Shown: positions 6,590 through 17,329 of the stretch, piece after piece
Numbering within the stretch: the stretch's first letter is position 1
Layout: every line of letters starts with the position of its first letter
Source of the DNA: a virus
DNA: 32,918 nt
Virus record (IMG/VR): IMGVR_UViG_3300009431_000077
Span: 1 to 32,918 of that record
Strand: one strand, 5' to 3'
Made by a program: the position numbers and the translations under genes
The notes under the pieces: model-generated
Seen by the model: only the letters and a program-made list of their open reading frames with translations
Databases searched by the model: none
Told to the model about the DNA's origin: nothing

Positions 6590-7204
6590 AGACGCTTCCT
6601 CCTTAAGTTTAGGTTCATTAGTTTTCAGTTTATTTAGTTCTTCGTTCATTTGAATCTTAGTAGTTGGTCTCCAAGACTCCTTCATCAAAGCTCCGGCAGC
6701 GGCAGGTCTGTGAACCCAATCAGAACTAGCCAATGAGATCCACACGAGGGGGGTTATAACAACACGACCGTCTTCTAACTCTTCCTCTTCTGTCTCACAA
6801 TACCCGTGCACCGAAATCCCTATTTTTTCAGGGGTTGCAGAAGCTTTCGCGAATACTTCTTCAGCCAAAGGAGTCTCGTCATAAAAGGCCACCTTAGAAT
6901 AAACCCCGTCGGCTCTAGCATCGAATGTGCCGGGGATATGATAAGAAACAGCATCTTGTACTCGTCTAGAATAAGCATCCCACTCCGAATGATTACAGAA
7001 CATCACCGGAGATTCTTCAAGCACAACTCTAAAAGACTCAGAGCTGGCCAGCGTGAAATTTGTCCCATTCGCGGAAATCCCGTGGCGGTAGTGCCTCACA
7101 AGAGCTTGTTTCTCCTCTTTACCCTCAGAGTTCTTTACCACATTACACTCAATAATTTCAGAACCAGGGAAAATAAATTCTTTCAAATTCCTCTTATTTG
7201 GCAT
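6026..7204 (-). CDS. Prohead protease fused to scaffold
   Basis: The N-terminal half (about residues 1-190) looks like a phage prohead protease of the herpesvirus-assemblin-like type: PVMFCNHSEW holds the likely catalytic His (about H72), GISVHGY the likely nucleophile Ser (about S131), and SSDWVHRPAAAG the conserved exit strand. The C-terminal half is a long, highly charged coiled coil ending in an acidic tail, typical of scaffolding. I start it at 7204 (MPNKRN) because GGAGG lies seven bases upstream; the frame opens at 7237. It overlaps the endonuclease gene before it by 11 bases. The scaffold half also has its own start (separate entry). Confidence 0.8.
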   Translation of the reverse strand: MPNKRNLKEFIFPGSEIIECNVVKNSEGKEEKQALVRHYRHGISANGTNFTLASSESFRVVLEESPVMFCNHSEWDAYSRRVQDAVSYHIPGTFDARADGVYSKVAFYDETPLAEEVFAKASATPEKIGISVHGYCETEEEELEDGRVVITPLVWISLASSDWVHRPAAAGALMKESWRPTTKIQMNEELNKLKTNEPKLKEEASMNEELKKLFEKLQESLSTDNMSAIKELIEARTAEIEGLKTDLQTANDSIATLETEKTDLETAKADLVKEKDQLTADLKTATDEKEKLEERVKNADDQAEYAQIVEELELPDKLKEFVLDEDNWFHKKWIGEERADIEEAMKSLKENLVTLKTKETPDGQVVVEEKETDEDEKELSDDELLELNHEDE

Positions 7205-8171
7205 CAACACCTCCGTCTCTGTATCTACAATTATCAAAGTGCCATCTCTTCATAGTAAGCCCCACTCCTTCTTTTCCACAATGAGGACAAACAAGAATTT
7301 CTCTCTTGCCACAGTTTTCAAAGTGCCACTGTTTCATAGTACTTTCTCCTCCAACTTTCCCACAAACAGGACATGTTACCACTTTTTGTTTAAACTCTTT
7401 ACCACAGTTGTCGAAATGCCAGCGCTTCATTTGAGAAATCCCACCAACTTTTCCACAGTGAGGACAGGTAACATTATGCCCTTTTCGAGCTTCCGACATC
7501 TTCTGCTTAGTTTCTTCTGAAGGGTATCTCCCCTGACCAGCCTCGCCTATCTTTTGCTTATGCTCCTCAGAAAGCTTTTTACCAAAGAAATGATGCCTTT
7601 CACCTTTCCGGGCCTCAGACATCTTCCTTTTCGTTTCTTCAGTATGATGCCTATCTTCCTTTTTCTTCTTACTCCAAGGATTCACCCACTCAGACTCTTC
7701 TCGTATTTTCTGAAGAACTGCTCTTTTCTTTTCTAAAACCTCACCACTATACTTCCTGCCAGAAAGAGCCTCACTTATCTTCCTTCTTGACTCTTTCGTA
7801 TGGGTCTTCCCGTAAAAGTGATTCTTTTCCCCCATACGAACTTCTGACATCTTCTTCTTGGTTCTATCAGATATCTCATAACTTCCACCGCCAGTAGTAA
7901 GATTATACCCAGAATTGAAAGTGTTGTAGCTCTTAATATACAACTTCTCAACATCATTCAAGGTATCTCTAGTAGCATCTGGTGAAAGTACCTCAAGAAC
8001 AAACCACTCAAAAGCATCCTCACCATATTTCCTAAGAGCATTATGAAAATAATTAGAAGATCCTCTGGATGAGAAGAAGTGATGCTCTTTCCTTCTCTCT
8101 TTCAAAGTCTTAGTAGTCTGCCCAACATAAGACTTCCCATTCACCTTGTTTACAGCCCTATAAACAATCAA
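7194..8171 (-). CDS. GIY-YIG homing endonuclease with NUMOD3 repeats and zinc fingers
   Basis: The 325-residue protein starts with a GIY-YIG nuclease domain (VYRAVNKVNGKSYVGQT; a conserved Arg near 26, Glu 76 in VEKLYIKSYN, Asn 90 in GYNLTTGG). NUMOD3-type DNA-binding repeats follow (KKKMSEVRMGEKNHFYGK, RRKISEALSGRKYS and others, about 103-230). It ends with three CxxC-x12-HxxxC zinc-finger-like units at 236-256, 267-287 and 295-315. It starts at TTG. As a free-standing mobile endonuclease it would cut a related phage lacking it and spread by repair. It is the first gene behind the promoter at 8212-8240, ahead of the capsid genes. Confidence 0.9.
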   Translation of the reverse strand: MIVYRAVNKVNGKSYVGQTTKTLKERRKEHHFFSSRGSSNYFHNALRKYGEDAFEWFVLEVLSPDATRDTLNDVEKLYIKSYNTFNSGYNLTTGGGSYEISDRTKKKMSEVRMGEKNHFYGKTHTKESRRKISEALSGRKYSGEVLEKKRAVLQKIREESEWVNPWSKKKKEDRHHTEETKRKMSEARKGERHHFFGKKLSEEHKQKIGEAGQGRYPSEETKQKMSEARKGHNVTCPHCGKVGGISQMKRWHFDNCGKEFKQKVVTCPVCGKVGGESTMKQWHFENCGKREILVCPHCGKEGVGLTMKRWHFDNCRYRDGGVDAK

Positions 8172-8211: not shown

Positions 8212-8267
8212 AATATACGAAAAAAAAATGATAAAGTCAAGTTTTCCAAGGGTCTAGGAGACTAATT
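8212..8267 (-). promoter_or_regulatory. Late-type promoter for the capsid operon, with upstream box
   Basis: On the minus strand TTGACT (8235-8240) and TATATT (8212-8217) are 17 bases apart, with a T-tract and TCG before the -10. The region upstream to 8267 (AATTAG, CTCC, AGACC) aligns without gaps with those of the promoters at 15743-15798 and 17213-17268. The sigma-70-type core is near consensus. The shared upstream box may bind a phage activator. Confidence 0.75.
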
Positions 8268-11527: not shown

Positions 11528-12018
11528 TCTTCCTCTTGTGGTTCTTCCTCTTGTTCAGTATAACGAGGTAATCCCAAAACATCTTTAGCCATGCAAAGAC
11601 GATAGAAAACCGTGATCTTCTCACCATCCTCATCCTCGTTCTCATGCTCACCATAAAGACCTTCAAGAATAATCCCTGAGAACTGCCCCACAATAACCTT
11701 CATACCTATGTCAAGATCAAGTTCCTCAATGAATTCCCCATTACCCTTTTCAATAATGGTTCCCACATTAAGTTCCTGCTCAGTTCTAACCTTCGCAGGA
11801 TTGAACAAAAGAATCCCTTTGTATGTGGTCTTTGCCTCATACTTAATGATAATCTGATCCTGTAACAGTGTAATACCAGACACACCTTTGTTCAGAGGAT
11901 ACAAATCACTCAGATAAGAATGTGGTTGCTCTACTTCTTTTGGCATCTGTTGCTGTTGTGCTGCCATCTGTCTCGCCAGATCCTCTGGAACCAGTAATCC
12001 GTCGTTGTTTCCACTCAT
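11524..12018 (-). CDS. GroES-like co-chaperonin
   Basis: Residues about 48-150 follow the GroES plan: GITLLQDQIIIKYEAKTTYKG at the barrel start and mobile-loop region, then VGTIIEKGNGEFIEELDLDIG, then MKVIVGQFSGIILEG, and a closing strand with LCMAKDVLGL. An extra 45-residue Gln/Pro-rich head and an acidic tail (EQEEEPQEEE) flank the domain. A phage co-chaperonin such as T4 gp31 replaces host GroES to fold the capsid protein, which fits a place in the head operon. A clear AAAGGAG precedes the ATG. It sits between the two halves of the large terminase. Confidence 0.7.
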   Translation of the reverse strand: MSGNNDGLLVPEDLARQMAAQQQQMPKEVEQPHSYLSDLYPLNKGVSGITLLQDQIIIKYEAKTTYKGILLFNPAKVRTEQELNVGTIIEKGNGEFIEELDLDIGMKVIVGQFSGIILEGLYGEHENEDEDGEKITVFYRLCMAKDVLGLPRYTEQEEEPQEEE

Positions 12019-14299
12019 TCGTTTCTCCTTTTTGTTTGTTTAACTTGTAGGCTAAAGTCATCATTTTCAAAAAAACATCAAACAACATCACTTCCATAGG
12101 ATCTTCCAAGATGCTGTAATTGTCATCATGCATGAAGAACTTCTCGTTCCTCTCATGATAACCCAGATACCATAGTAAATCCTCATCCTCCTCATCCTCC
12201 TTCCCATACATGATATCAGAAGTATCATAATTAGGATCGGGGCTTGGACTATATTTCCTGCTCTTAGGCTTCGCTTCCCATATAGATCGTTTACGCCAAA
12301 AGCATTTTGTTCTTCTTATCCCCTCTTCACCCTCTGTCTGTTCTATATATTCCAGATTTCTGATTCTAGTCTCCAGAAAATCCTTTTGGTATCTGGCGGA
12401 GGAGATCATGATAATAAAACCAGCCTCATTCAACTTATTTCCGAAACGAGATTCACGACGAGCATCAAGACTATCATGCATCTGCTGCGCTTGATCAAAG
12501 ATCTCTGTAGTTGACCCAGACCCCCGCTTACTCCCCTTTACCTGCTCCAAGAAATTAGCTTCATCAACCACCGCACCCCATACATCAAAACCAAGAGCAG
12601 AAGCAACATCACCGGAACCAGGAAACAACACAGTCCTGTTCCGGGGTATATGAAGACGACTAGTGATACGAGAGTTAATTGGGAAATACTCCTTGTTAAA
12701 CTGGCTCTGGAATAAAGGAATCACTTTATCAAACATTACCTTCTGAGCCAGATTAGCATTCTTAGACATGAAGACTTGCGCCACCGTAGAATTAGAAGCT
12801 AATCCAAAATGCTCAAACGGATTATAGTGAGCAGTGAACCTAAACCACTCAATGTAAGATAGTATAGACGCCATGAAACTGTTATGCGTAACGATAAAAT
12901 CATCCGTAAGATATAAATGATCGTCATCATCTAAAGTTATACAACTAGCAAAATCATCAAAAACATACTCAACAGCTGTAATAAACCTTACTGGAAGATA
13001 CTTCTTATTTACAGACAATCTTTCTTTTTTTCTAGGTAAAGTAAAAACTTCTCTATGTAAATCTTCCGGTAAATTAACAGTTAGATTGTAGTTAATAGCC
13101 CCTTTTAATTTCCTTCCATCATGTGTGTACCAAGGATTTTTTGTACTTACTGTAGCAACGCCCCCCAAAGATTCAACCAGTATTTTTATATCTTCTTTAA
13201 GTTGCTTGGATGATGTTGAATATGAAGGATTCTTTCCAAACTTAGTTCTGTTCTTCATCATTTTATCAGCTGTACCATCCGTATCCATCAAACCTTGTAG
13301 CAAAGACATTCTTACATCAACACTGTTGTATAGGTAATCCTCAGGAATAAACTTACTACAACTCTTGCGGCCTATCAAACCCATATCCCTTAAATCATAG
13401 AGCAGCTTATTCTGCACAGATTGAGATCTTCCACTCGATATCCTGTAACCATATTTAGAACCAACTACCTTCTTTAAGACCAATTCAGGATAATCTCTAA
13501 CTAAGATAAGTTTTATCTTTTCCAAGATAAAATCTTCTGAACTAGTTAAAGTAACATTAACTGTCAAACCACCATCCCCAAGCAAAATCCCTAACAAGTA
13601 AGGATCAACTGAGATATCCTTCTCCTTGAAATAAACAGGTTTTGTCATAGGAATGCTATGATTCTTCATATCATTCCATTTAACCCGCTCAAACATAAGA
13701 GAATTGCTTATCTCTTTAGTGGTTTTAACAGAAGAAACAGGATGTTTTGTTACTTTTCCATTTATCCTCTTTTTTCTACCTCTTTCGTTCCTAGTAGAAG
13801 TCAACCACAAATGATCTTCGGTCACATGAGTACATGAACCATCAGAAAAAGACACTTTGTAAATTGGAACTACTCCTTGAGGATGTACTTGAACCACTTT
13901 AGCAGTAGAACCATTTGGAGTTGATACAATATCACCAACCTTAATATCTCCCATCAATTTAAAACCATCTGGAGTATACACCTTGGAATCATTTTTTCCG
14001 GCTTTCCCACTTCCAATAGCCTCTTCTAAAAAGACAAAATGAATCGGTCTCTCTTTCCGTTCCTCATACAGAGCTTCAATATCATCTAAAATTGGAGGAT
14101 ATATTGCGCCCCCCAAATTCAAGAAATAATCATCAAATATCAACTCTCTAATAGACACATTGGCAAAGGACTCAGCAATCGAGGGTGTCCAAGCCTTAAG
14201 ACCTTTCCCCTCCCTCTCCAGTATATTCCGAAGAGAGTCCTCAGCCCCTCTTTGAAGCATCTCACCAACATACTTGTTAATATCCTGACCTTTTTTCAT
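11906..14299 (-). CDS. Terminase large subunit, ATPase domain, interrupted by an intein
   Basis: The 797-residue precursor contains a 374-residue intein (residues 100-473). Spliced, it is 423 residues: an N-terminal adaptor region, Walker A (EAIGSGK joined to SFMAS), Walker B GAVVDEA (D579/E580 in precursor numbering) and the coupling motif MISSAR (632-635). No nuclease motifs follow; they are in the gene at 10487-11527. The last ~37 codons overlap the co-chaperonin gene and look low-complexity (GSRGSGETDGSTT), so the native stop may have been lost. This protein powers DNA packaging. The ATG overlaps the preceding gene by four bases. Confidence 0.85.
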   Translation of the reverse strand: MKKGQDINKYVGEMLQRGAEDSLRNILEREGKGLKAWTPSIAESFANVSIRELIFDDYFLNLGGAIYPPILDDIEALYEERKERPIHFVFLEEAIGSGKAGKNDSKVYTPDGFKLMGDIKVGDIVSTPNGSTAKVVQVHPQGVVPIYKVSFSDGSCTHVTEDHLWLTSTRNERGRKKRINGKVTKHPVSSVKTTKEISNSLMFERVKWNDMKNHSIPMTKPVYFKEKDISVDPYLLGILLGDGGLTVNVTLTSSEDFILEKIKLILVRDYPELVLKKVVGSKYGYRISSGRSQSVQNKLLYDLRDMGLIGRKSCSKFIPEDYLYNSVDVRMSLLQGLMDTDGTADKMMKNRTKFGKNPSYSTSSKQLKEDIKILVESLGGVATVSTKNPWYTHDGRKLKGAINYNLTVNLPEDLHREVFTLPRKKERLSVNKKYLPVRFITAVEYVFDDFASCITLDDDDHLYLTDDFIVTHNSFMASILSYIEWFRFTAHYNPFEHFGLASNSTVAQVFMSKNANLAQKVMFDKVIPLFQSQFNKEYFPINSRITSRLHIPRNRTVLFPGSGDVASALGFDVWGAVVDEANFLEQVKGSKRGSGSTTEIFDQAQQMHDSLDARRESRFGNKLNEAGFIIMISSARYQKDFLETRIRNLEYIEQTEGEEGIRRTKCFWRKRSIWEAKPKSRKYSPSPDPNYDTSDIMYGKEDEEDEDLLWYLGYHERNEKFFMHDDNYSILEDPMEVMLFDVFLKMMTLAYKLNKQKGETNEWKQRRITGSRGSGETDGSTTATDAKRSRATTFLSE
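12881..14002 (-). other. Class 3-type intein with LAGLIDADG endonuclease
   Basis: The insertion splits Walker A between Lys99 and Ser474 of the precursor. It starts with Ala (AGKNDSKVYTPDGFKLMGDI) instead of Cys or Ser. It has block B TEDHLW (H163, W165), a block F with ASCITLDDDDHLYL (C453) and ends VTHN before Ser. Trp, Cys and Thr in these places are the WCT signature of class 3 inteins, in which the block F Cys starts splicing. A LAGLIDADG endonuclease lies inside (YLLGILLGDGG at 234-244 and LLQGLMDTDGT at 333-343). The class assignment comes from motif reading. Confidence 0.85.
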
Positions 14300-14922
14300 T
14301 TGACAAGATCCACAACTTCAACTTCAGTAACCTCTCCTGTATATTCCCCCCTAAGCTGTCCAGGTAGCACAACCTGTTCCCAAATTTCAGTCAGAATCTC
14401 TCTAGACTTATTCTTTGGCAGCATCTGATTAACCACAACAAAGATCTGTTCCACAAATGCCAAAATAATCTTAGGATCAAGTTTCAGGTTAGATTCAATA
14501 CGAGATTTAGCTTCTTTAATTGCAACAATATCCTTTGCCAATTTCGATATGGCTCGAAGCTGCTTGAGATCAAACTGAGAACTCGGCATGAACTTAGCAA
14601 CAGCCTCACCATCTCCCCCCTCCTGAGATCCCGGCATTTCTATAAGAGCTTCCCCCTCTTGTAACCTCTTAAGATACAACTGCATAACAGCATATAGAAT
14701 CTTAAGTTCTGCATCTGGGGATGTTAGATCAGTAGCCCCTAATTCAGAGGCTTCCCTAAGAGCGTCTCCCAGTTCGTTTCCCTCATCCAAGGTCTTAGAT
14801 ACAAGACCTACCACAGCATCATGAGATTTAACCGTAGGGCGTGTTTCCTCAGGAGAATTGTCTACTATATCTGAAAAGACCTTTACCGGCGTTGTGCTAT
14901 TGTTTTCTGGTACTTCTCCCAA
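14296..14922 (-). CDS. Putative terminase small subunit
   Basis: This 208-residue protein sits directly before the terminase ATPase gene with a four-base overlap, the usual place of TerS. It is mostly helical: a flexible acidic N-terminus, then LSPDAELK-like helices and FDLKQLRAISKLAKDIVAIKEAKSRIE followed by EILTEIWEQVVLPG. No clear helix-turn-helix is visible, so the call rests on position. It starts at TTG with AAGGAG six bases upstream. Alternatives include another head-assembly factor. Confidence 0.45.
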   Translation of the reverse strand: MGEVPENNSTTPVKVFSDIVDNSPEETRPTVKSHDAVVGLVSKTLDEGNELGDALREASELGATDLTSPDAELKILYAVMQLYLKRLQEGEALIEMPGSQEGGDGEAVAKFMPSSQFDLKQLRAISKLAKDIVAIKEAKSRIESNLKLDPKIILAFVEQIFVVVNQMLPKNKSREILTEIWEQVVLPGQLRGEYTGEVTEVEVVDLVK

Positions 14923-15035: not shown

Positions 15036-15219
15036 ATTCCACCTCAAGGATGTATTCATCAAGCATATCTCTCACCACATCAGAAAGATCTTTGTTAAGC
15101 ATTTGCACAAGATTACGGAGCATTTTATCTTCCTCCTCCGTGATTCTTATGCTTTGAGGGATGCTTAGACTTTCCTTTTTTCTTTGCTTTAAGTTGCTTT
15201 TTACTATACTTTTTGACAT
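15022..15219 (-). CDS. Ribbon-helix-helix-like DNA-binding protein (65 aa)
   Basis: After a basic N-terminus (KSNLKQRKKES) this 65-residue protein shows a strand IPQSIRITEEE, helix DKMLRNLVQMLN, turn KDLSD and second helix VVRDMLDEYILEVE, the layout of ribbon-helix-helix regulators. The ATG follows GGAGGTAGAGG. Its first 95 bases lie inside the TnpB-like gene in another frame. With the 50-residue gene after it, this is a tandem of two small DNA-binding-type proteins. Candidate targets are the shared boxes upstream of the late-type promoters; that link is inference. Confidence 0.65.
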   Translation of the reverse strand: MSKSIVKSNLKQRKKESLSIPQSIRITEEEDKMLRNLVQMLNKDLSDVVRDMLDEYILEVEYEEG

Positions 15220-15736
15220 AATCCTCTACCTCCACAATAGTAGAATATGAATAAGATCTTCCCCCTTTATTTCTTTTTCTTCCAACTTCCACCGAAATAA
15301 TCTTACCTTCAAACAGAGGTAGTTTACAGCCAACTTTTACAGAAATACCCCCAAAGAAAAGTAATACACCTTCAGGCCAAACAGACTTTATACCACATTG
15401 ATCAGTACACTTAAATGATCTGCAATTCTTCCTAAAATTAATAGTATTGGTATCCCCAACATAGAAAGAATTAAAATCATGCAGAGCATCTTTAATGATC
15501 TCTGCAATAAATGAACATGAAACAGAGTTTAACCAAGGACTCTTTGGCTTCAAATAAGTATTCACCTCTCGTTCAAGAACAATAAATGAAACTGGATTAC
15601 TTTCACCTATTTCATTAAGACGCCTTAAACACCAGTTATAAACCAAACAAGTAGCATCAAAGTGATGATTAAGCTTCTTATACAGCACCGAGCCAGACAC
15701 CATCGAAAGAATTGGAAGAACAACTTTTGCTTTCAT
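15125..15736 (-). CDS. Stand-alone TnpB-like N-terminal domain, no RuvC nuclease
   Basis: The 203-residue product follows the N-terminal part of TnpB/OrfB: FDATCLVYNWCLRRLNEIGE (27-46), LKPKSPWLNSVSCSFIAEII (62-81), a helix ending in FNSFY, FRKNCRSFKCT, and the wedge-like beta region GGISVKVGCKLPLFEGKIISVEV leading to STIVEVE. TnpB proteins would continue into RuvC-I here. This one ends in a Lys/His/Gly tail (KAKKKGKSKHPSKHKNHGGG), so nuclease and zinc-ribbon domains are absent. In TnpB this half helps bind the omega RNA. The gene directly follows a putative giant RNA and starts almost at its promoter's transcription start. Confidence 0.7.
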   Translation of the reverse strand: MKAKVVLPILSMVSGSVLYKKLNHHFDATCLVYNWCLRRLNEIGESNPVSFIVLEREVNTYLKPKSPWLNSVSCSFIAEIIKDALHDFNSFYVGDTNTINFRKNCRSFKCTDQCGIKSVWPEGVLLFFGGISVKVGCKLPLFEGKIISVEVGRKRNKGGRSYSYSTIVEVEDYVKKYSKKQLKAKKKGKSKHPSKHKNHGGGR

Positions 15737-15742
15737 ACTAAT

Positions 15743-15798
15743 AATATACGAAATTTTTTTGTTAAAGTCAAGTTTTTACAATGGTCTGAAGTCTTTTG
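15743..15798 (-). promoter_or_regulatory. Late-type promoter for the packaging operon
   Basis: TTGACT (15766-15771) and TATATT (15743-15748) are 17 bases apart on the minus strand. The upstream box (AAAGACTTCAGACC) aligns without gaps with the promoters at 8212-8267 and 17213-17268. The -10 lies only six bases before the ATG of the TnpB-like gene, so the transcript should be nearly leaderless. Confidence 0.7.
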
Positions 15799-16056
15799 GC
15801 ATACCAAAACCCCTCTTTTCAACCTTAATAGTAACTATTAGCATTAAGCGCAATATTGTATCTCTGAACTTGGAACCCTCCGCATAGGTAAGCTGGCGTA
15901 GCCAGCTTCCCTAGCGAGAGAACTTCTATCAAGGTGTTAAACTGGGAGGAATCGTTTGGGTATGGTTAAAGGGCTTTTTTGGTCTTGGCTCAATCAAGAC
16001 GCATTTCCCCAGGTAAGCTATCACCGAGTCCCTAGAGTGTATGAAAGGTAAGTTAG

Positions 16057-16239
16057 AACTAGTGAGAGACTTTGGAGTTGAGAGTTAACTAGTGTTTAGA
16101 GCCCGCTTAGGTTCCATACCCCCTACGGGGCTATGCACACCCACGCGGTCTGTCAGCCAGCAAAGCTGGCTGACAAAGTAAACTACTCTCTTGAAGTTTG
16201 AAGAGAGAAGAGTAACTTGTTTTCTAGTAATAACTAGTG
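16057..16239. repeat. Three AACTAGTG copies in the RNA region
   Basis: AACTAGTG occurs at 16057-16064, 16087-16094 and 16232-16239. The core ACTAGT is self-complementary, so copies could pair with one another in the RNA. They lie in a GAGA/CTCT-rich section between clear hairpins. Confidence 0.5.
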
Positions 16240-16307
16240 AGTAACTCTAACTCTCTCTAATCAAGAGGAAGGAAGAGTGAGTTCTCTTTAATCTAACTCA
16301 AACCTCA

Positions 16308-16342
16308 CTCAAAGTTAAAGTTAACTCAAAGTTCTCAAAGTT
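16308..16342. repeat. Three CTCAAAGTT copies in the RNA region
   Basis: CTCAAAGTT is at 16308-16316, 16325-16333 and 16334-16342; the last two are directly adjacent. This part of the region has fewer strong hairpins than its flanks and may be a repeat-rich linker in the transcript. Confidence 0.6.
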
Positions 16343-17212
16343 AATTAGCAACTGGAAGAAGACCAACAGGTTCCTACGTCCCTAACGGGTCGTAGTCACT
16401 ATCCTGTGTCTGTTCTAAAGGGTGGGAAAGTTGTAGTGAGAGGAGTAGATACACTTCTCCTTTACCTGTCAATTTGAGTTTACAACGCACTTTTTATGCT
16501 CATGAAGAAGTAACTCGATCTTCTCCTTGAGAGTTCTCCCTGAAGTTACCTTCGTAACTTCATAAAAAACAAATATAAGTGCGTCGTAGACATCTTTAGG
16601 AGATGCTGAGGAGAGATGACGACCCCCAATGACTCGGTGGCAACTACTGGTGATCTGACAAGCGATCCTAGACTTCCAGTCCAGTTGTTGGAATATTTAA
16701 TGGTTCAATAATTCTTTGAGGTTACACCCTTTAGGGTTTTACTGGAGGACTTTGATAGGACAGAAAGCTGGATAGCCTATCATCGTTTGTCATCATTGTG
16801 AGTAGAAAAGCGAGGTTCTAATGTAATGAATGACTGAGTTTATGCTTGTGCACCTTCCCTAACATCCAATTGTAACGATACGATTTCCCACCCATAGCAT
16901 ACTGTTCGCACACACCCCTAAGGTTCTTAGGGCCCGGTAGCTAATCGAGTAGAGCGGTTGTCGTCATGGTCTAAAGCGGTTACAATCAAATCCGAGCTGG
17001 ACAGAGTACCGTTGCATTAGTCCTGGGAATAAACTTTACCTTGGGTCAGTTGTAATGATCACGAAGCAGCACGACATCCCTATATGTCTCTTGCAAAGCA
17101 AGGCTCCCAGCGAGATTACGACCCAATACCTTCGGCGATTGAGAAGACAAACTCATAAAAAACGCCTTCTCTTCGGAGCATTCCCACAAAGAATATTTCA
17201 ATGAACTCCTTT

Positions 17213-17268
17213 AATATACGAAAAAAATATGACAAAGTCAAGTTTTTCTGACCCTCTGGAGTCTAATT
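17213..17268 (-). promoter_or_regulatory. Late-type promoter for the putative giant RNA
   Basis: TTGACT (17236-17241) and TATATT (17213-17218) are 17 bases apart on the minus strand, with TTTTTTTCG before the -10. The upstream 27 bases align without gaps with the two other late-type promoters. Transcription should begin near 17206 and run into the non-coding region. It lies back to back with the plus-strand promoter at 17301. Confidence 0.75.
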
Positions 17269-17300
17269 AGGGTAACTTTATCGAGTTTTTTCTTCGGAAA

Positions 17301-17329
17301 TAGACATTTCGTAGTTCTGTTCCTATATT
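17301..17329 (+). promoter_or_regulatory. Early-type promoter 1
   Basis: TAGACA (17301-17306) and TATATT (17324-17329) are 17 bases apart, with TTCC directly before the -10 and GTAT after it. Three more copies with the same features lie at 23052, 26935 and 31391. It drives the first plus-strand operon. Confidence 0.75.

Follow-up and report, generated by a model that had tools for sequence, protein, structure and literature searches.

The window analyzed here is the whole of a linear IMG/VR virus record of 32,918 bases, a fragment of the genome of an uncultured tailed phage. To the left of ~15.7 kb, its main genes all lie on the minus strand and form a late/packaging module coding for a TerS-like protein, TerL, a second terminase part, a portal-like protein, and a capsid protein. 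From 17.3 kb rightward, the plus strand carries the main genes, which include those for a metallophosphatase, a ribonucleotide reductase, RtcB, methylases, ThyX, and Hsp20. The region that concerns us sits between these divergent late and early modules (Table 1). The TerL intein, which contains a LAGLIDADG domain, sits exactly within the Walker A motif (GSGK/S); contig L012, the nearest diverged relative, carries the same gene without an intein, and the higher-identity TerL matches to EL-like and other phages stem from the intein.

Table 1. Coordinates of genes, predicted promoters, and predicted RNA domains around the region
Feature	Positions	Strand	Remarks
TerL gene	11906-14299	minus	Intein within the Walker A motif; LAGLIDADG match
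TerS-like gene	14296-14922	minus	
Gene for a small basic protein like the N-terminal half of TnpB	15125-15736	minus	203 aa; phrog_506 transposase, E 2.8e-10, residues 20-173
Second promoter copy, predicted to drive the TnpB-like gene	15743-15771	minus	
Candidate large structured noncoding RNA	15780-17206	minus	~1.43 kb, putative start to next promoter; both ends putative
Domain V (3' end): closed by a CATACC/GGTATG stem; 10-bp stem inside	15800-15964	minus	Pair probabilities 0.71-1.00
Low-complexity domain, 9-bp stem GAGTTAACT/AGTTAACTC	16082-16327	minus	Pair probabilities 0.61-1.00
Short direct repeats of the AACTTTGAG type, iteron-like	16317-16344	minus	Tandem repeat, 2.7 copies, score 42
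Domain containing a GACAGGT/ACCTGTT stem plus three inner stems	16365-16470	minus	Pair probabilities 0.73-1.00
Domain III: closed by a 12-bp stem with one G-U; two long hairpins inside	16481-16588	minus	Pair probabilities 0.92-1.00
Domain II: long-range arm ATGACGAC/GTCGTCAT, span 351 nt	16616-16967	minus	Arm pair probabilities 0.90-0.93
Domain I: 7+5+4-bp long stem with hairpins inside	17041-17126	minus	Pair probabilities 0.91-0.99
Predicted promoter TTGACT-17 nt-TATATT	17213-17241	minus	10/12 consensus; putative start near 17206

The gene directly downstream of the region codes for a basic protein whose similarity to TnpB is confined to the N-terminal half: a PF12323 match falls below threshold, the RuvC part is absent, and no HNH or IscB family match was obtained. 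The -10 box of the promoter copy in front of it ends ~7 nt before its ATG, and the TnpB-like mRNA would therefore be nearly leaderless. With a promoter of its own, this protein is possibly a domesticated RNA-binding module and a possible RNA-binding partner of the candidate RNA, a role that is a guess because L012 lacks the gene and the AlphaFold model (pLDDT 35) is unusable.

A gene-free interval and its promoters

At an 80-aa cutoff, no part of the window other than the interval from 15737 to 17327 is free of ORFs over more than 400 nt, and we found no plausible gene in this interval on either strand, recoded stops included. The longest ORF wholly within it has 51 aa and a TTG start, a length that is usually exceeded in shuffled sequence (15 of 200 shuffles were equally poor or poorer), and its open frames under the standard code and four recoded ones (TGA, TAG, TAA, and TAG plus TAA) are no longer than those of shuffled sequence. 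Six-frame translated pieces gave no convincing match (the lowest E value among 2.4 Mb of loci was 0.04), the short ORFs matched no PHROG, and no remnant of any protein family was detected. Genes hidden by stop codon recoding were accordingly rejected. A preliminary description of this DNA, which had reported ~1.4 kb without a convincing gene, is thus borne out. The GC skew, which is -0.2 to -0.3 in the late genes, is about 0 in the region, as expected of noncoding and self-paired sequence.

A sigma-70-like promoter, AACTTGACTTTGTCATATTTTTTTCGTATATTA, is predicted to read into the region from its right-hand side, in agreement with the near-consensus promoter reported earlier. Near-copies occur in front of the TnpB-like gene and at 8212 to 8240, both on the minus strand, against a chance expectation of 0.00, and each of the three copies lies directly upstream of a minus strand unit. 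Consensus match and repetition thus point to a predicted promoter belonging to the region itself, a trait expected of a large ornate RNA. Given that the TnpB-like gene has its own copy, the one at 17241 to 17213 has only the 1.4-kb region to drive. The designation of this promoter as late type is apt insofar as its copies precede units in the late direction, but a promoter pattern search found the same shape to be frequent in many unrelated phages, including contigs that carry two known RNAs, manA and tmRNA, and it is therefore not specific to this lineage. A terminator scan found no intrinsic terminator at the 3' end of the region or before the next gene. Directly behind the third promoter copy is a gene for a GIY-YIG endonuclease with three NUMOD3 motifs (7194 to 8171, minus strand).

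Excess structure and the question of strand

The minus strand of the region has a minimum free energy of -450.2 kcal/mol, compared to -389.6 ± 11.0 kcal/mol in 40 dinucleotide shuffles (z, -5.5), and the plus strand one of -431.6 kcal/mol (z, -4.1 with 40 shuffles or -5.2 with 16). The same method gave z values of -3.4 forward and -1.1 reversed for Escherichia coli 16S rRNA and of +0.6 to -2.2 for four coding stretches of the same phage. With 100 shuffles, the excess is seen in both the 3' half (-5.8 minus, -5.0 plus) and the 5' half (-3.2 minus, -2.0 plus). Pairs with a probability above 0.8 number 264, compared to a mean of ~145 to 148 in shuffles, of which single ones reach 242 to 245. The region thus combines, like the large ornate RNAs, a long noncoding sequence with structure well beyond chance.

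All of the domains in Table 1 are predictions from a single-sequence fold. The interior of domain II is occupied by nested 5- and 7-bp helices and hairpins (inner-helix pair probabilities, 0.62 to 0.98); the low-complexity domain contains an 11-bp perfect hairpin (16175 to 16151), which grows to 13 pairs in the full fold (16177 to 16149), and domain V contains another perfect hairpin (15908 to 15890). Both of the long stems singled out in the preliminary description recur: the 11-bp stem with a G-U (16482 to 16492 with 16577 to 16587) is real and reaches 12 bp in the full minus strand fold at a pair probability of 0.97, and the two-part stem of 7+5 bp (17041 to 17056 with 17115 to 17126) is present with probabilities of 0.91 and 0.95. 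Its figure of at least ten hairpins holds if near-perfect stems are counted, but just 5 perfect hairpins have stems of at least 7 bp and loops of 3 to 9 nt (0.68 in shuffles, 1 of 500 of which reaches 5), and 3 have stems of at least 8 bp (0.15 in shuffles).

The advantage of the minus strand over the plus strand, 18.6 kcal/mol, is unexceptional, being reached by 4 of 24 shuffles (mean, 5.5; standard deviation, 9.5); for 16S rRNA, by contrast, the strands differ by 97 kcal/mol (-585 versus -488). Of the 264 strong pairs, 127 (about half) are common to both strands and are plain inverted repeats, and the wobble positions in shared helices, one G-T versus three A-C, display no minus strand bias. 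Because the opposite strand shows almost the same fold excess, the assignment of strand rests on the promoter, and the case for a transcript, as opposed to structure at the DNA level, would likewise depend mainly on it. The evidence for strand and for RNA is thinner than the preliminary description implied.

These features have to be weighed against a replication origin or other control region, in which the hairpins and direct repeats would act in the DNA between the divergent modules. The cumulative GC skew has its minimum at ~16 kb, within the region, and such a DNA-level origin therefore stays a live rival, albeit one that we consider unlikely. It would also account for the iteron-like repeats, for the 3-nt loops of three of the five perfect hairpins and the strict Watson-Crick stems of all five, and for the similar fold excess on both strands. 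The skew minimum, repeats, and hairpins are compatible with an origin but confounded by gene orientation, which by itself also explains the turn in the skew. Further, one would hardly expect a strong promoter to read into 1.4 kb of bare origin, and the minus strand is the slightly but consistently better folder. Replication origins usually measure a few hundred bases, whereas the structure here fills the whole space between two promoters and is longer than that.

Decay offers a second way to explain inverted repeats without an RNA. In favor of a sequence with no present function, none of the relatives searched carries it, and the mostly perfect stems could be young duplications or palindromes. 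Nevertheless, we regard this as decidedly improbable in view of the absence of any protein family remnant, the compactness of phage genomes (no other ORF-free gap in the 32.9-kb window exceeds 400 nt), the intact promoter, and a fold with long-range nested stems and not palindromes alone.

Relatives, known RNA families, and the proposed ornate RNA

Relatives were sought with the terminase, capsid, TnpB-like, and ribonucleotide reductase proteins and with the promoter pattern as probes, and the terminase alignment yielded 34 related contigs. Two contigs, L002 and L003, are 100% identical to the window, and L002 spans the 3' two-thirds of the region. Beyond these, BLAST and nhmmer recovered no homologue of the region from phage and plasmid records, contigs of terminase relatives, or contigs with promoter hits, nor did covariance models built on domains I, III, and V detect one in 65 sources and 17 relative records. 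The sole match of these models beyond the window (L217, 2945 to 3068; E, 0.015) was taken as chance, as it overlaps the edge of a TerS gene. With the only other copy (L002) identical and no diverged homologue at hand, compensatory changes cannot be assessed, nor can a new class be demonstrated.

The terminase of L012 is 58 to 63% identical to that of the window, and its promoter (469 to 500) shares 26 of 32 bases (81%). Upstream of this promoter, L012 has at least 470 nt (1 to 470, where the contig ends) that contain no convincing gene and give fold z values of -2.95 on the plus strand and -2.27 on the minus strand; this moderately structured stretch occupies the same genomic place as the candidate, is unrelated in sequence, and has strong G+C-rich hairpins. 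By eye, a terminator-like AACCAAA-TTTTT-TTTGGTT-TTTT, not called by the terminator scan, is seen in it at ~197 to 217. More distant relatives (30 to 39%) have little or nothing comparable at this place, and in L135, L150, and L230, hardly any space is left between the divergent genes where the candidate would be. A 748-nt gap upstream of the terminase in L210/L211 was rejected as a counterpart, being unstructured.

The same comparison bears on the idea that the region is a very long structured 5' leader regulating, in cis, late expression of the packaging operon (the TnpB-like gene, small ORFs, TerS, and TerL). The region runs in the direction of the late operon, no intrinsic terminator separates it from the next gene, and L012 has a promoter and noncoding sequence ahead of the same operon. 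We nonetheless judge such a leader quite unlikely, less so than decay but more so than an origin, considering that the downstream gene has its own promoter copy ~7 nt before its start codon, that a leader of 1.4 kb would be very long, and that distant relatives have the same operon without the region.

None of 4,227 Rfam families, including GOLLD, ROOL, OLE, and HEARO, matched at the gathering threshold or at E values up to 10, other than two meaningless chance-level matches below an E of 10 to plastid and tombusvirus elements. For the four named families, to which the preliminary description had looked for kinship, the check included a covariance search with short input and lax filters, and none of them matched at E up to 10. 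What stands of the giant structured RNA that it proposed is a long, promoter-driven, noncoding, structure-rich region that is none of these families. GOLLD and ROOL were recently shown to assemble into RNA-only cages that exceed the ribosome in size and whose function is unknown, and whether RNA-only assemblies are common among large natural RNAs is an open question (PMC12286853). By the membership criteria for these families, the GOLLD cage is a 14-mer and that of ROOL is an octamer.

GOLLD (RF02032) is, like the candidate, a large, structure-rich noncoding RNA of phages and prophages. Its members are often longer than 800 nt, and it is expressed more strongly when phage-infected cells lyse (PMC12286853), as would suit the late-direction promoter of the candidate. 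In contrast to GOLLD, the ~1.4-kb candidate has no covariance model match and no tRNA island nearby; proximity to phage tRNA genes is common, not universal, for GOLLD, and the 32.9-kb window, itself a fragment, contains no tRNA gene. ROOL is likewise a large ornate RNA of phages and prophages, and the 520-nt RNA of Lactobacillus salivarius is presumably a ROOL RNA. That RNA is abundant (PMC5643018). The candidate is much longer than 520 nt and differs from ROOL further in having no Rfam match and no tRNA island. A highly divergent GOLLD or ROOL missed by the Rfam models would suit the phage origin, size class, and character in the published description (PMC12286853), but with no tRNA nearby and neither family matched at E up to 10 despite the universally conserved 3' region of GOLLD (PMC12286853), we deem it extremely improbable.

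OLE and HEARO are large structured bacterial RNAs with partner proteins, and the candidate has the TnpB-N-like basic protein directly downstream; however, neither model matches, and this neighbor, devoid of a RuvC part, has no match to HNH or IscB families. The phi29 pRNA also resembles the candidate as a noncoding phage RNA beside packaging genes, and it is multimeric. It measures 174 nt as opposed to 1.4 kb, and the relatives have related TerS/TerL genes without an adjoining RNA of this kind.

The observation of a gene-free, promoter-led, structure-rich region is confirmed. Our favored explanation, to which we give about an even chance, is a lineage-specific large structured noncoding RNA, on the minus strand and in the late direction, acting as a scaffold in trans; in kind, the candidate is most likely an ornate RNA like GOLLD and ROOL that belongs to no known family. 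The promoter at 17241 to 17213 would start a transcript of ~1.4 kb that adopts a series of five or more stable domains, one of them closed by a long-range stem, and stops at or before the next promoter (15771). In infection, this RNA would most likely serve as a structural scaffold, whether by itself, in multimeric form, or together with a basic protein as its partner. We favor an RNA because the promoter is repeated at three units and has only 1.4 kb before the next one; because there is no coding signal, the GC skew of the late strand vanishes, and the fold z value is below that of 16S rRNA; because both halves exceed shuffles, and in each the minus strand shows the larger excess; and because L012 keeps a promoter and a structured noncoding stretch in the same place. 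Against an RNA, we counted the lack of a homologue, the almost equal folding of the plus strand, the missing wobble bias, the lack of a 3' intrinsic terminator, the distant relatives without the region, and the absence of tRNA neighbors.

More tentatively, the region may represent a new class of giant ornate phage RNA, at ~1.4 kb longer than most described GOLLD RNAs and without kinship to known families, which would belong to one lineage of uncultured phages, be expressed in the late direction, and possibly form an RNA-only or RNA-protein assembly; L012 may have a nonhomologous counterpart at the same place. If this is true, a third, unrelated phage RNA of the size of GOLLD and ROOL would suggest that giant structural RNAs arise repeatedly in phage evolution and would provide an independent molecule for asking what such RNAs do. 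At present, it is a single-sequence candidate, of value mainly because it offers a well-delimited target to probing experiments and to deeper searches of metagenomes.

We also looked for structured gaps at other places in seven longer relative records. The strongest of these gaps (G013; z, -5.3) was set aside, as it holds tRNA-like genes: in this terminase-related phage, L253 (4720 to 5040) has two tRNA-like cloverleafs with GGTTCGAATCC-type arms that were called by neither ARAGORN nor Rfam (gathering threshold). Among the contigs found with the promoter pattern, six (L155, L159, L161, L152, L187, and L208) carry manA RNA (RF01745) in ORF-free gaps of ~680 to 1200 nt. In L120, a promoter of the same shape precedes a short hairpin-terminated transcript, probably a small RNA (3087 to 3000, minus strand; GATCTGTAC...GTACAGATC and then a T run), and the gap around it has a z value of -8.1 (8 shuffles, standard deviation floor applied).
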